A stretch of 64,000 nt of DNA from Pseudomaricurvus alkylphenolicus (GTDB lineage: Bacteria; Pseudomonadota; Gammaproteobacteria; Pseudomonadales; Cellvibrionaceae): positions 248,001-312,000 of the forward strand of contig NZ_JAAQPI010000008.1 of NCBI RefSeq assembly GCF_011683955.1, given 5' to 3'. The number at the start of each line of letters is the position of its first letter. Position 1 is the first letter of the stretch. Under the pieces are notes generated by a model, which searched no databases, was not told the DNA's origin, and saw nothing but the letters and a program-made list of their open reading frames with translations. The translations under genes and the position numbers were made by a program. Positions 57,687 to 63,785 of this stretch are shown one piece after another.

Positions 57687-59369
57687 ATGAGCGAATCTTT
57701 CGCAGAACTCTTTGAAGAAAGCTTAAAGTCCGTTGATATGGTTCCCGGTTCTATCGTAACCGGCGTAGTGATCGACGTTGATAAAGACTGGGTTACTGTT
57801 CACGCAGGCCTGAAGTCTGAAGGTGTTATCCCTGCTTATCAGTTCCACGACGAAAATGGCGAACTGACCCTGCAAGTAGGCGACGAAGTTCAGGTTGCAC
57901 TGGAATCCGTAGAAGACGGTTTCGGTGAGACCAAGCTGTCCCGTGAGAAAGCCAAGCGCGCTGAAGCTTGGAAGGTACTGGAAGCGGCTCACGAAGCAGA
58001 CGAAATTGTTAAGGGTGTTATCAATGGCAAGGTCAAGGGTGGTTTCACCGTTGACGTATCCAGCATCCGCGCGTTCCTGCCAGGTTCTCTGGTAGACGTA
58101 CGCCCCGTTCGCGAAACCGCTCACCTGGAAGGCAAAGAGCTGGAATTCAAGGTCATCAAGCTGGACCAGAAGCGCAACAACGTTGTTGTTTCCCGCCGTG
58201 CTGTTCTTGAAAAGGCCAACTCTGCAGAGCGCGAAGAGCTGCTGGCCAGCCTGCAAGAAGGTATGTCCATCAAGGGTATCGTTAAGAACCTGACTGACTA
58301 CGGTGCCTTCGTAGACCTGGGTGGTGTTGACGGCCTGCTGCACATCACTGACATGGCCTGGAAGCGCATCAAGCACCCATCTGAGATTGTTAACGTTGGC
58401 GACGAGATTGACGTTAAAGTCCTGAAGTTCGACCGTGAGCGCAATCGCGTATCTCTGGGTCTGAAGCAGCTGGGTGAAGATCCTTGGGTAGAAATCACCA
58501 ACCGTTACCCAGAAGGCGCCCGCACCAAGGCCAAGGTTACCAACCTCACTGACTACGGCTGCTTTGCCGAGATCGAGGAAGGTGTTGAAGGTCTGGTACA
58601 CGTCTCTGAAATGGACTGGACCAACAAGAACATCCACCCATCCAAAGTTGTCAACGTCGGCGACGAAGTGGAAGTTATGGTTCTGGACATCGACGAAGAG
58701 CGTCGTCGTATCTCCCTGGGTATCAAGCAGTGTCAAGAAAACCCATGGGATGCCTTCGGCAAGCAGTTCGCTAAAGGTGACAAGATTTCCGGTAAGATCA
58801 AGTCCATCACCGACTTCGGTATCTTCATCGGTCTGGACGGCGGCATCGACGGTCTGGTTCACCTGTCCGACATCTCCTGGCAGGAAGCTGGCGAAGAAGC
58901 CGTACGCAAGTACAAGAAGGGCGACGAGCTGGAAACCGTTATTCTGGCTATCGACCCAGAGCGCGAGCGTATCTCCCTGGGCATCAAGCAGCTGGACAAC
59001 GATCCGTTCTCTGACTACGTTGCCACCAACGACAAAGGCTCTATCGTTACCGGTACCATCAAAGAAGTTGACGCCAAGGCTGCTATCGTAGTTCTGGCTG
59101 ACGACGTTGAAGCGGTACTGAAGGCTTCTGAAATCAGCCGCGAAAAGGTTGAAGATGCCCGTAACGCACTGAGCGAAGGCCAGGAAGTTGAGGCTGTGAT
59201 CCTGAATGTTGATCGCAAGAACCGCAACATCAACCTGTCCATCAAGTCCAAGGACGCTGCTGAAGAGCGTGCTGCCATTAAGGAGCACTCCGCCAAGTCT
59301 GCTGAGGCCGCACCTGCTGCCACCATCGGTGACCTGATCAAGGCACAGATGAAGAGCCAGGACAAGTAA
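57687..59369 (+). CDS. rpsA: 30S ribosomal protein S1
   Basis: A 560-aa protein with six S1 (OB-fold) domains: about residues 20-88, 106-172, 193-261, 278-348, 365-435 and 452-521. The first two bind the ribosome and the rest bind mRNA, as in E. coli S1 (557 aa). Codon use is strongly biased to the abundant-tRNA set, as expected for a highly expressed gene. A 217-bp leader separates it from lapB and probably holds its own promoter and the S1 autoregulatory region. Twin hairpins end the transcript. Confidence 0.98.
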
Positions 59370-59391
59370 GTCCCAGTCACCCAAGGTGATA

Positions 59392-59447
59392 GTCCGGGGT
59401 TAAACCCGGACGGCGACAAAAAAGGCGGCTTCGGCTGCCTTTTTTGT
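59392..59447 (+). terminator. Tandem hairpins and intrinsic terminator after rpsA
   Basis: GTCCGGG/CCCGGAC (59392-59411) is followed by a strong terminator at 59416-59447: ACAAAAAAGGC..GCTTCGGC..GCCTTTTTTGT. A UUCG tetraloop and a T-run make it efficient. It isolates the rpsA transcript from the small-RNA candidate that follows. Confidence 0.9.
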
Positions 59448-59473
59448 GCCCCATCCTAACTGGTACGATCGTT

Positions 59474-59491
59474 TGTCAGCGATTTCCTACA
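59474..59491 (+). promoter_or_regulatory. GacA-type upstream activating sequence
   Basis: TGTCAGCGATTTCCTACA matches the GacA consensus TGTAAG-N6-CTTACA in 10 of 12 defined bases, with exact 6-bp spacing. Its centre lies about 70 bp before the predicted start of the GGA-rich RNA. A -10-like GATTAT at 59542-59547 has a poor -35, as expected for an activator-dependent promoter. Confidence 0.6.
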
Positions 59492-59552
59492 AGCATTGGG
59501 GGGATTGTCCTCTGGCGCGATCGAGTCCTTTGGGCGACACTGATTATGCACA

Positions 59553-59712
59553 GGGAAGTTGACATGGAAGTGTGTGTTGACCAGGACGGGTCAAGGGATG
59601 CGCCCGGATGTAGCGGTGGGACAGGGAGTCTCTTTCAGCCAATTCCAGACAGGGCTTGGCTGTCCGCAGAGGGACGAAGCGGGGCGGCACCGAAGGGTGT
59701 CGCCCCGTTTTC
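59553..59712 (+). ncRNA. RsmY/RsmZ/CsrB-type small RNA candidate (CsrA/RsmA antagonist)
   Basis: A stretch of about 160 nt between the rpsA terminator and ihfB. It contains eight GGA motifs in about 120 nt (59554, 59566, 59584, 59596, 59606, 59619, 59625, 59672), whereas two would be expected by chance. Two are in hairpin loops: TTGACC-AGGACG-GGTCAA at 59577-59594 and GGGAC-AGGGA-GTCTC at 59618-59632. One (AGGGATG at 59595) fits the CsrA consensus ARGGAUG, and another reads GGATGT. The RNA ends in a 12-bp stem with TTTTCC (59680-59712). No protein frame explains the conservation-like structure. It would sequester CsrA/RsmA; RsmA itself is not in the window. Confidence 0.6.
59680..59711 (+). 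terminator. Intrinsic terminator of the small-RNA candidate
   Basis: CGGGGCGGCACC pairs with GGTGTCGCCCCG (one wobble) around a 4-nt loop and is followed by TTTT. It is a second strong terminator 230 bp after the rpsA terminator, implying an independent transcript in between. Confidence 0.85.
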
Positions 59713-59789
59713 CGTTCTATCTGGCCAAAAATTCTCGCAGCAGAAGGCCAAAAAATGCCCGAGTTGTTCAAATATCTCTAAATTGTCAC

Positions 59790-59818
59790 TTGTTCCCAAA
59801 TCCTCATCGTCCTATACT
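59790..59818 (+). promoter_or_regulatory. Predicted ihfB promoter
   Basis: TTGTTC (59790-59795) and TATACT (59813-59818) are separated by 17 bp, a good sigma-70 pairing. This gives a leader of about 40 nt before the ihfB start at 59866. Confidence 0.55.
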
Positions 59819-59865
59819 CCTTTGAAAACAATGAGTTAGGCGTATGGTGGAACGAAGGATTGCAT

Positions 59866-60168
59866 ATGACCAAGTCAGAGTTGATCGAACGAATCGCTGA
59901 ACAGCAGGACCAGTTATCGCTTAAGGATGTGGAACTGGCGGTAAAACTGATGCTGGAGCACATGTCCCAGGTTCTGGCCGCTGGCGAACGCATTGAAATT
60001 CGCGGCTTTGGCAGCTTTTCTCTGCACTACCGCGCACCACGCATCGGGCGTAACCCCAAGACCGGTGATTCTGTGGAGCTGTCCGGCAAGTACGTGCCTC
60101 ACTTCAAGCCCGGCAAAGAAATGCGTGACCGGGTTAACGATAGTATTCAGTCCCACCCTGCCCACTAG
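59866..60168 (+). CDS. ihfB: Integration host factor subunit beta
   Basis: A 100-aa DNABII protein, the beta half of the IHF DNA-bending heterodimer. The start is the ATG at 59866 ([14 protein letters not shown]) after ACGAAGGA, not the TTG at 59860. The DNA-intercalating arm has [31 protein letters not shown], with the key proline in NPKTG. The rpsA-ihfB linkage is widespread in gammaproteobacteria. Confidence 0.95.
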
Positions 60169-60479
60169 CCCATGTGGGCCATGATTTCGTTCATTGGATG
60201 ATGACAGGCCTGCTACCGAGGGCATTTCAGCGGTTTTACCCGGCTGGCCCTTACTCAGATGAGATCCAGTTCTCGTTCTTGACGCTTTTTGCCACACTTT
60301 GTGTGAATATCCCCTTACACTGAGCCCCGCCATTGGCGTGATTTTGTGCCCTGTGCTATAGTGCCGCGCCTATCCGTACCCTTCCGCACCCCTTGAAAAA
60401 GCGGCATTTGGGCCCGATTTCCATGGAAGGCATAATGACAACAGCGACGGCCACCTGACCATTAAGACGATCTCCATCT
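60169..60479. other. 311-bp intergenic region with the predicted secretion-operon promoter
   Basis: There is no gene here. A promoter candidate TTGGCG (60333-60338), 18-bp spacer and TATAGT (60357-60362) precedes the type I secretion operon by about 115 bp. I see no clear terminator after ihfB and no recognisable regulator site. Confidence 0.45.
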
Positions 60480-62285
60480 ATGCAGCAACAAAACAACGAT
60501 TTCACTAAGACGGAACTGTTTGAGGCGCTAAAGTCTGTCAAACAGTATTTTGGCTACGCCGTGCTGTTCAGTATGGCGGTCAACCTGCTGATGATCATCC
60601 CCTCTATTTATATGCTGCAGGTGTATGATCGGGTGGTGACCAGTGGCAGTGTCTCGACCCTGGTGATGCTGACACTGTTGTTAGTGTTCCTGCTGGGCTC
60701 CATGGGGGGCTTTGAGTGGGTTCGGTCCCGTATTCTGGTGCGCGCCAGTACCCAGATCGAGAAAATGCTGCGTACCCGTACCTTTGATGCCACCTTTAAA
60801 CAGTCGCTAATGACGGGTGGAATGAAAGGCAGCTCCCAGCCGCTTTCAGATCTGTCCGGGCTGCGTCAGTTTTTGACAGGGAATGGCCTGTTCGCCTTTT
60901 TCGATGCGCCCTGGTTTCCTATCTACGTGATGATCATGTTTATGTTCCACTGGAGCTATGGACTGGTCGCCGTATTTGCCGGTTCCGTGCTGGTGGTTAT
61001 CGCTTTTCTCAATGAGAAGTTCACCAACAAAACCTTAAAGGATGCCAACACCGAGGCCGCCTGGGTCAGTAACTACGCCAGCAAAAACCTGCAGAATGCC
61101 GAAGTTATTGAGTCCATGGGCATGATGGGCGCGATTCGTCGCAAATGGGAAGAGCGCAGTGATCGCGTGCTGGCCCTTCAGGGCGACGCCAGCGATTCTG
61201 CGGGCATCTTTACATCGATATCAAAAACCTTTCGCATGACCGTGCAATCGCTGATCCTGGGGTTGGGTGCATACCTTGCCGTTAAACAGGAAATCTCGCC
61301 GGGCATGATGATTGCCGGCTCGATTCTGCTGGGGCGTGCACTGGCACCAATCGATCAAATGGTCGGTGCCTGGCGGGGCTTTTCTACTGCTCGCGCACAA
61401 TACCAGCGACTGGAGCAGCTGCTGGAAAAAATCCCGGAAGACAAAGACCGTATGAGTCTGCCGGCCCCGAAAGGGGAGGTATCTGTAGAAGGTATCATGG
61501 TGGCGCCGCCCGGTTCTCGAACCCCCACACTGCGCGGAGTGGAATTCAAACTGGAGCCCGGTGAGATTCTCGGTGTTATTGGACCCAGTGCCGCGGGTAA
61601 ATCCACCCTGGCCAGAGCGATGTTGGGCATCTGGCCAACCCTGTCGGGTAAAGTGCGGTTGGACAGCGCGGATATCTATACCTGGGACCGGGAAGAGCTG
61701 GGCCCCTTTATTGGCTATCTGCCTCAGGACATTGAGCTTTTCGATGGCACCATTGCCGAAAACATTGCCCGCTTTACGGAAATCGATTCGGAGGCTGTTG
61801 TCGAGGCCGCCCAGTTGGCAGGTGTCCATGAAATGATCCTGCGCCTGCCGGATGGCTACGATACTCAAATCGGCAGTCACGGTGGAGCCCTCTCGGGCGG
61901 CCAGCGTCAGCGCATCGGTTTGGCTCGCGCGCTCTATGGTAACCCTTGTTTTGTGGTTCTTGACGAACCCAACTCCAATCTTGACGAAAAGGGTGAGCAG
62001 GAATTGCTGGCTGCGCTCAAGCGCATGAAGGAGCGGGGGGTGACCGTGATGATCATCGCACACCGACCTCAGGTCTTGCTCAGTGTGGATAAGATTCTGG
62101 TGCTGGCAGAAGGCACCATGAAGGATTTCGGTACCCGCGATCAGGTCATGAGCAAATTTGTGAAGCCCTCAGCGGCAGCCCAAGCCGCACAGGCGGCACA
62201 ATCACAGCAGGGGCAGCCCAAAACCATTCAGGGGCAAGCGCAGCCTGCCAACGGCGCCAATGTCGTGCCCGTACCTAATCGATAA
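60480..62285 (+). CDS. Type I secretion ABC transporter, permease/ATPase (PrtD-like)
   Basis: A 601-aa fused exporter. About six transmembrane helices occupy residues 25-300, with no N-terminal C39 peptidase or CLD domain. The nucleotide-binding domain carries Walker A GPSAAGKST (about residues 370-378), the signature LSGGQRQRIGLARALYGNP (about 470-488) and Walker B CFVVLDEPNSNLDE. This is the PrtD/AprD/HasD type that exports RTX proteases, lipases or haemophores with non-cleaved C-terminal signals. A Gln/Ala-rich tail ends the protein. It is followed after 30 bp by the HlyD-type adaptor gene. Confidence 0.9.
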   Translation: MQQQNNDFTKTELFEALKSVKQYFGYAVLFSMAVNLLMIIPSIYMLQVYDRVVTSGSVSTLVMLTLLLVFLLGSMGGFEWVRSRILVRASTQIEKMLRTRTFDATFKQSLMTGGMKGSSQPLSDLSGLRQFLTGNGLFAFFDAPWFPIYVMIMFMFHWSYGLVAVFAGSVLVVIAFLNEKFTNKTLKDANTEAAWVSNYASKNLQNAEVIESMGMMGAIRRKWEERSDRVLALQGDASDSAGIFTSISKTFRMTVQSLILGLGAYLAVKQEISPGMMIAGSILLGRALAPIDQMVGAWRGFSTARAQYQRLEQLLEKIPEDKDRMSLPAPKGEVSVEGIMVAPPGSRTPTLRGVEFKLEPGEILGVIGPSAAGKSTLARAMLGIWPTLSGKVRLDSADIYTWDREELGPFIGYLPQDIELFDGTIAENIARFTEIDSEAVVEAAQLAGVHEMILRLPDGYDTQIGSHGGALSGGQRQRIGLARALYGNPCFVVLDEPNSNLDEKGEQELLAALKRMKERGVTVMIIAHRPQVLLSVDKILVLAEGTMKDFGTRDQVMSKFVKPSAAAQAAQAAQSQQGQPKTIQGQAQPANGANVVPVPNR

Positions 62286-62315: not shown

Positions 62316-63785
62316 ATGACCGAGAAATCACAGGGAGCGGTCAACGACGCTCCTGATGCCGAAGAAAGCAAATCCACATTGCCCGAAGCACTGGACGCAA
62401 AAGCCGAGCCCGGTACTGATGCTGCAAAAGAGGGCGGGCCGGATCTCGCGCAGTTCGATACAGAGCAGCCGATTGATGAAGAGGCGGCCGACAATCTTGA
62501 TGCTGAGACCGACTTTTCCAAACCTCGTCGAGTCGGCATGGTGCTCTTTATTCTGGTGTTTGGTGTATTTGGACTTTGGTCGGTGATTGCGCCGCTGGAA
62601 AGTGCGGCCCTGGCGCCCGGCATCGTTGCTGTTAAGTCCCATAAGAAAACCGTTCAACACCTGGAAGGCGGCATCGTCAAGTCCATCAATATCCGCAATG
62701 GTGACTTGGTGGAAGCCGAGGATGTGCTGATTGTTTTGGATGAGACCCAATCCCGCGCTCAGCTGGAAATTATTCGCGGTCAGTACATTGCTTTTAAAGC
62801 CAAGGAGTCTCGTCTGCTGGCCGAGCGGGATAACCGCAATCTGGTGGACTACCCGCAGGACCTTACCTCATTGGAAGATACCCGAGTCCAGGAAGAGGTG
62901 GCTTCACAGAATCAATTGTTCCAGGCTCGCCGCAGCTCCAAGATTGGTGAAATGTCGGTGCTGGAGCAGCGCATAGAGCAGCTGCAAACCAGCGTCAAAG
63001 GCCTGGAAGCCCTCAAGGACAGTAAAGAGGAGCTGGTGGTTTCCTACGGCGAAGAACTGAGTGATTTTCGCGATCTGCTGGACGAAGGTTATGCCGATAA
63101 AATCCGCGTGCGTGAACTGGAACGTAGCCACGCTCGCTTAAAAGGTGAAGTCGCTGAACTGATCTCCAATATCTCCGCCACCGAAGTACAGATTGGCGAG
63201 ACCAAACTGAATATTCTGCAGCTGGATAAAGACTTCCATAGAAACGTTGTGGATGAATTGGCGGAAGTGCAGACCAGTCTGAACGATACCGAAGAGCGCA
63301 TGAATGCGTTACTGGATACCGTAGAGCGTACTGAAATTCGTGCTCCTGCCAAGGGCATCGTACACGGTTTGCAGGTTCACACCTTGGGCGCCGTGTTGTC
63401 GCCCGGCACCCCGATTCTCGATATCGTACCGCAGTCGGATATTCTGGTTGTCGAGGCCCAGGTGGCGCCCATCGACATTGATCGGGTATTTATTGGCCAG
63501 GACGCAAAAATCCGCTTCTCAGCCTTTAAGAGCGCCACCACACAGGTGATATCCGCCGAGCTGATTTCCCTGTCTGCGGATCGAATCATCGACGAGCAAA
63601 CCGGTATGCCGCACTACCTGGCCAGGGTGGAAGTCACCGATATTGGTTTAAAAGAACTTGGGGATTTGGAACTTTTGCCAGGGATGCCTGCCGAAGTTCT
63701 CATCAATACCGGGTCTCGCACATTGCTTGAGTATCTGACTCAGCCGATTACCGATGCGATGGCCCGATCCATGATTGAAGACTGA
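62316..63785 (+). CDS. HlyD family type I secretion periplasmic adaptor
   Basis: A 489-aa membrane fusion protein. An acidic cytoplasmic N-terminus (about residues 1-68; EEAADNLDAETDFS) precedes one transmembrane helix (about 71-92). Next come the first lipoyl half (SHKKTVQHLEGGIVKSINIRNGD, with the characteristic QHLEGGIV), a long coiled-coil hairpin (about 145-340), the second lipoyl half and a beta-barrel domain. It bridges the inner-membrane ABC protein to the TolC-like channel. The N-terminal extension is longer than in PrtE. Confidence 0.92.
   Translation: MTEKSQGAVNDAPDAEESKSTLPEALDAKAEPGTDAAKEGGPDLAQFDTEQPIDEEAADNLDAETDFSKPRRVGMVLFILVFGVFGLWSVIAPLESAALAPGIVAVKSHKKTVQHLEGGIVKSINIRNGDLVEAEDVLIVLDETQSRAQLEIIRGQYIAFKAKESRLLAERDNRNLVDYPQDLTSLEDTRVQEEVASQNQLFQARRSSKIGEMSVLEQRIEQLQTSVKGLEALKDSKEELVVSYGEELSDFRDLLDEGYADKIRVRELERSHARLKGEVAELISNISATEVQIGETKLNILQLDKDFHRNVVDELAEVQTSLNDTEERMNALLDTVERTEIRAPAKGIVHGLQVHTLGAVLSPGTPILDIVPQSDILVVEAQVAPIDIDRVFIGQDAKIRFSAFKSATTQVISAELISLSADRIIDEQTGMPHYLARVEVTDIGLKELGDLELLPGMPAEVLINTGSRTLLEYLTQPITDAMARSMIED

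Follow-up and report, generated by a model that had tools for sequence, protein, structure and literature searches.

The spacer between rpsA and ihfB in Pseudomaricurvus alkylphenolicus (positions 59370-59868 of the window, by which we mean the whole 64,000-nucleotide stretch of DNA analyzed) can be read with high confidence as holding a gene for a small RNA of the CsrB/RsmY/RsmZ type, activated by GacA, and, as far as can be judged from the sequence, the stretch is very probably the gene of a small regulatory RNA that soaks up CsrA. The RNA is a new family of a known kind, which is multi-copy, frequent in one bacterial family and for which no Rfam family was found. This reading, put forward in the original prediction, is supported by several agreeing lines of evidence: homologs in other genera (including a profile match obtained with the window's own genus left out), the position of the box, an enrichment in ANGGA motifs, faint matches to the Csr/Rsm clan, a promoter and 5' end shared with rsmY, and the partner genes. 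The features of the spacer are listed below; A4 is an alignment of 53 members taken from a search of 41 sources with the model R1 (described further on), A5 consists of 30 rows hand-picked from these 53, leaning toward rows with good boxes, and L082 and L083 are loci in two genomes of the window's genus.

59418-59445, plus strand: hairpin flanked by A and T runs, resembling a terminator of rpsA (read from the sequence; L082 and L083 have like hairpins there)
59474-59491, plus strand: GacA/UvrY-type upstream activating sequence TGTCAGCGATTTCCTACA (10/12 to TGTAAG-N6-CTTACA; position common to A4 and A5)
59506-59515, plus strand: second promoter element TGTCCTCTGG (A5 columns 37-46)
59542-59547, plus strand: -10-like element GATTAT (A4 and A5)
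59550-59713, plus strand: predicted Csr/Rsm-type small RNA of about 164 nt, both ends putative (leave-genus-out profile match; R1 and R2; length by script)
59554-59556, plus strand: GGA site 1 (ACAGGGA), in 53/53 members
59566-59568, plus strand: GGA site 2 (ACATGGA), in 48/53 members
59577-59594, plus strand: hairpin TTGACC-AGGACG-GGTCAA (pairing conservation), with the AGGACG loop at 59583-59588 and the loop GGA at 59584-59586
59596-59598, plus strand: GGA site 4 (AAGGGA), in 52/52 members with letters there
59618-59632, plus strand: hairpin GGGAC-AGGGA-GTCTC, with an ANGGA in the AGGGA loop at 59623-59627 (predicted fold of the window)
59679-59713, plus strand: intrinsic terminator of the RNA, a strong hairpin followed only by TTTTCC (sequence, fold and script)
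59813-59818, plus strand: TATACT, a -10-like element ascribed to an ihfB promoter of its own (also present in L082 and L083)

The separate rpsA terminator and ihfB promoter that had been predicted on the two sides of the unit were both read in the spacer and both recur in L082 and L083, and the strong terminator predicted at the end of the RNA was also found, while a simple consensus scan of 59300-59900 called zero sigma-70 promoters and zero terminators. Upstream of GATTAT no -35 element of the RNA promoter was found. The box, the second element and the -10 align in A5; in the RNA family the commonest form of the second element is TGCCACTAT, with A5 columns 40, 43 and 44 conserved in at least 90%, and CGTCCTCTAT stands at the corresponding place in L187, an rsmY locus. 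The unit precedes ihfB on the same strand in five of the six genomes of the genus that were analyzed (the window's own genome, G000, together with G001, G002, G004 and G005), an arrangement that would also suit a 5' leader of ihfB, in the form of a GGA-rich, CsrA-regulated leader or attenuator yielding no free RNA. We rejected this reading, to which we leave a slim chance, on account of the terminator belonging to the unit itself, the separate -10-like element before ihfB, and the homologs that lie away from ihfB (L084-L086, from two other genera, with neither rpsA nor ihfB within the 3 kb fetched).

The signals that first draw attention to a free RNA differ in weight when taken in the window only. 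The GacA-like palindrome of the original prediction is borne out at 10/12, but the box alone is chance-like (two matches with at most two mismatches in the 64-kb window, against 0.95 expected). From its end to the likely start of the RNA (around 59550) there are about 60 bp; the GacA site consensus is given as TGTAAG-N6-CTTACA, and such sites as lying 75 bp (rsmY) and 196 bp (rsmZ) upstream, in the part of PMC4950607 consulted. The predicted GGA-rich stretch was recovered: eight GGA, five of them as ANGGA, lie in the 129 nt between 59550 and the terminator. The plain GGA count is reached by 304 of 5000 dinucleotide shuffles and is weak alone. Five ANGGA are reached by 7/5000 shuffles, and when the window was sampled on both strands at a step of 20, not one of the 6388 stretches of this length had as many. 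With a step of 5 on the plus strand, five ANGGA occur only in stretches starting at 59546 and 59551. Regarding the fold, the z-score of the window RNA is -3.6 with the terminator and +0.1 without it, so that folding energy in the window adds nothing beyond the terminator; across six sequences the terminator-less values against shuffles are mixed (window +0.1, L085 +0.3, L086 +0.7, L083 -0.9, L084 -2.7 and L082 -3.4) and were therefore set aside as evidence. The case for the RNA consequently rests on conservation, the box and the plain GGA count each being weak alone.

A BLASTN search with the spacer against 97 genomes gave matches in six, the own genome included. Two of these come from other genomes of the genus, where the match lies at the same place (E 2e-9 and 2.7e-9), and the other three (L084-L086) lie in three genomes of two other genera, where the neighboring genes, by reading of the open reading frames, are a pal/cpoB-like pair or a DTW-like gene. 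At E 0.01, the covariance model R1, built from the six BLASTN-matched sequences (the window among its seeds), found matches in 67 of 145 genomes, counting the six that supplied the seeds; 65 of these 67 belong to the window's bacterial family, apparently the Cellvibrionaceae. Many genomes hold two to five R1 matches, some of them in tandem; three tandem matches were observed within about 0.8 kb in each of G101:C1:1754734-1755536, G052:C1:805927-806679 and G033:C1:2896585-2897325. The model R2, built from A4 with the window again among the seeds, had matches in 82 of 390 genomes from the order and, at E 0.01, in 13 of the 26 genomes reached via named loci. The matches in the Exilibacterium metagenome-assembled genome (that of L065), C16:7647 and C27:44030, have the same coordinates as in G030 (family f1), and it is on this basis that the bacterial family is taken to be the Cellvibrionaceae. 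The phage collection gave no match.

In order to have a profile without the window's genus, a hidden Markov model was made from 42 of the 53 members, with the genus (nine rows) and two heavily gapped rows left out. It gives a single match in the window, at 59472-59605, with E 1.4e-20 (4e-12 for the RNA half alone and 0.0042 for the promoter half alone), whereas the reversed window gives none and the best of ten block-shuffled windows reaches E 6.1. The choice and alignment of the 42 rows still trace back to R1, which includes the window. Against this background, a GGA-rich spacer and a palindrome brought together by chance is an explanation with next to no credibility and was rejected: a box of this quality does occur about once per 64 kb, and the GGA count is matched by 304/5000 shuffles, but the leave-genus-out match makes chance untenable, and the two BLASTN matches within the genus, together with the 53 aligned members, add to it.

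The position between rpsA and ihfB, which the original prediction took as the sign of a possible new family member, has a more restricted meaning. The RNA family is indeed new, and of a known kind, but since the unit shares its genome with at least one other such RNA and occupies one of many places used by the RNA family, the rpsA-ihfB position marks the genus and not the family. Within the genus, another gene occupies the upstream place of rpsA in G001, and two copies fetched from G003 have neither rpsA nor ihfB within 1-3 kb. When R1 was run on the window and on 80 ihfB loci of other bacteria (72 of which have rpsA upstream), the window only was matched.

In the alignment of the 53 members, the conserved part of the RNA is a 5' module organized around the hairpin at 59577-59594. 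Because the members were found by, and aligned to, a model holding the window, the counts of conserved sites are biased upward and reflect selection in part. The hairpin is paired in 83.4% of cells, compared with at most 52.9% in slid controls. The two outer pairs are broken in 19 and 27 members, and the fourth is GU (24), AU (15) or GC (13); only one cell shows changes on both sides, a number that 145 of 500 shuffles also reach. Two of the eight window GGAs fall in predicted loops (AGGACG and AGGGA), in line with the fold foreseen in the original prediction, but the GGA of the AGGACG loop is present in only 17/53 members, and the best-conserved sites are elsewhere, in the nearly invariant GGAs that flank the hairpin (53/53, 48/53 and 52/52). 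Over 51 members, the box reaches 10/12 or more in 21 and 8/12 or more in 35, and stays at 7 or below in 16 (shuffled letters reach 10/12 in about 0.1% and at least 8 in about 4.5%). A script called a terminator in 46/53 members and none in 7/53, several of its calls being clearly too early, inside the core (for instance, RNAs of 60 and 62 nt); in the 46 members with a call, the mean number of ANGGA is 6.5 against 1.8 in shuffled sequences, and that of GGA 9.0 against 5.5. Two things are unusual about this RNA family: its 5' module is fixed and carries GGAs outside the loop, and it has spread in multiple copies, some of them in tandem. The same alignment bears on a further alternative, namely that the stretch encodes a small leader peptide starting at the ATG at 59564, directly downstream of an AGGGA stretch resembling a ribosome site. 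The ATG and its upstream GGA are found in the window, L082 and L083, but most A4 rows, which differ there by one or two bases, have no ATG; this reading was rejected and is, in our view, very improbable.

The kinship with known Csr/Rsm RNAs that the original prediction relied on is visible in Rfam below its cut-offs. At gathering score, no family (CsrB RF00018 and CsrC RF00084 among those searched) was found in the whole window or in 20 member loci. RsmY (RF00195, gathering score 57) is not reached in the window and gives nothing at E 0.001 in G000; across G000 and 37 relatives, with first-look candidates scored in part, it gave zero matches over the cut-off and four weaker ones. PrrB_RsmZ (RF00166, gathering score 44) is reached neither in the window nor in G000, and over 58 genomes, again with first-look candidates scored in part, it passed the cut-off in one (G079, family f20). 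Under relaxed thresholds, the best E-value of the spacer belongs to the Yersinia CsrC (19.3 bits, E 0.0071, gathering score 279), and 18 member loci searched at E 0.1 gave 12 matches, 10 of which fall in the CsrB/RsmY/RsmZ clan CL00106; these clan matches come from 7 of the 18 loci, and 11 have none, L128 and L129 included. When one R2 locus was taken from each of 20 matched genomes, all seven loci from f20 (which are all the f20 genomes matched by R2) were RsmY, with 81-129 bits, and the other 13 had no Rfam match at E 0.01. The leave-genus-out model also matches these seven rsmY loci, with E-values between 1.3e-6 and 0.018 against a small target set, and the fact that both models match them indicates that the promoter and 5' end are common to the RNA family and rsmY.

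Compared with the RsmY of Pseudomonas, the window RNA has the same promoter layout (box, CCTCT/CCACT element and -10), a hairpin preceded by ACATGGA close to the 5' end, several ANGGA and a terminator; it differs in failing the RsmY model, in the sequence of the hairpin, and in belonging to an RNA family that mostly has no loop GGA and is multi-copy and tandem in several genomes. CsrB and CsrC act as sponges of CsrA. The window RNA shares a clan with them by faint matches (CsrB 34.6 bits in L160 and CsrC 21 bits in L146), but it has only five ANGGA, and the scores are far under the gathering scores. RsmZ belongs to the same clan; the part of PMC4353343 consulted describes it as GacA-activated and GGA-rich and gives GGA loops and boxes for both rsmY and rsmZ. 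Its model has no match in G000. The likeness to RsmX, including the tandem rsmX-1/rsmX-2, lies in their description as multi-copy and tandem GacA-dependent RNAs in the part of PMC7911923 consulted. In the literature searched (titles and the starts of abstracts, with few subscription papers covered), no Csr/Rsm RNA of the Cellvibrionaceae is named, and the parts covered of the report on the Teredinibacter turnerae genome (PMC2699552) describe GacS, GacA and two CsrA but name no small RNA gene. A paper of 2006 reportedly dealt with the prediction of CsrA-RNAs.

G000 has the partner genes. CsrA is matched four times above the cut-off, and an 812-aa frame contains a GacS-like sensor domain. The GacA reaches 254 bits where NCBIfam sets its cut-off at 280, the runner-up having 113; its gene adjoins, by reading, a uvrC-like open reading frame. 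The GacA frame (L169:1495-2130) is 211 codons long, a little shorter than its best matches in G001-G006 (215-217 codons), and on visual inspection it seems to lack a few residues after DDHDLVR. A second RNA of the kind was found at C34:330061 (L128, from 1062), with the box TGTAGGATATATCTCACA, seven ANGGA and a leave-genus-out E of 4.8e-14. A third candidate (C23:131856, L219, minus strand) is long and GGA-rich, with the palindromic box TGTGAGATATATCTCACA and 17 ANGGA over a whole printed stretch that extends beyond the candidate's end; profiles score it weakly (E 0.0053 in an earlier search, 0.1 with the leave-genus-out model), and it has no Rfam match at E 0.1. The own genome thus holds at least two, and probably three, such RNAs, the window locus included.

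Transcription, GacA dependence and CsrA binding, which we infer from sequence, would combine as follows. Phosphorylated GacA would bind the box at 59474 and transcription would start near 59550, giving an RNA of about 164 nt with its 3' end at 59713. CsrA dimers would be bound by the ANGGA motifs of this RNA, chiefly by the three nearly invariant ones around the fixed 5' hairpin, and the CsrA held in this way would be withdrawn from its target mRNAs. A wider proposal, which we advance tentatively and consider somewhat less than an even bet, is that the fixed 5' module (two ANGGA, a hairpin with an optional loop GGA, and a third ANGGA) is a landing platform for CsrA and, at the same time, that the composite GacA promoter defines a small direct GacA regulon, comprising protein genes (look-alike small open reading frames and a DUF7743/DUF7034 repeat protein) and the two or three sponge RNAs of the genome. 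The analysis gives a searchable model for the output RNAs of the Gac/Csr switch in the Cellvibrionaceae (a family with known polysaccharide degraders, according to the parts of the literature consulted), points to the GGA sites likely to matter most, and raises the possibility of direct GacA action on a few protein genes.

A search of G000 for the GacA-type promoter signature (R3) placed it before small open reading frames at L207/L221 (C2:300710, E 6.4e-7), L209/L222 (C66:151369, E 2.0e-6) and L217 (C2:259392, E 0.02). These frames are alike (61% over 44 aa for L222 and L221, with a weaker likeness to L217), Pfam gave nothing over its cut-off for the two of the three that were searched, and it is possible that they are direct protein targets of GacA. 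The signature also stands (E 4.1e-7) at L208/L220 (C13:85189), before a long frame with repeated DUF7743/DUF7034 domains. In the window, a second box-like match (TGTGAATATCCCCTTACA, two mismatches) lies at 60302-60319, before an ABC-transporter-like frame at 60480; it is absent from the R3 matches in G000 and is therefore probably due to chance. By eye, the frames at 60480-62285 and 62316-63785, downstream of ihfB, resemble a type I secretion ABC transporter and its membrane fusion partner.
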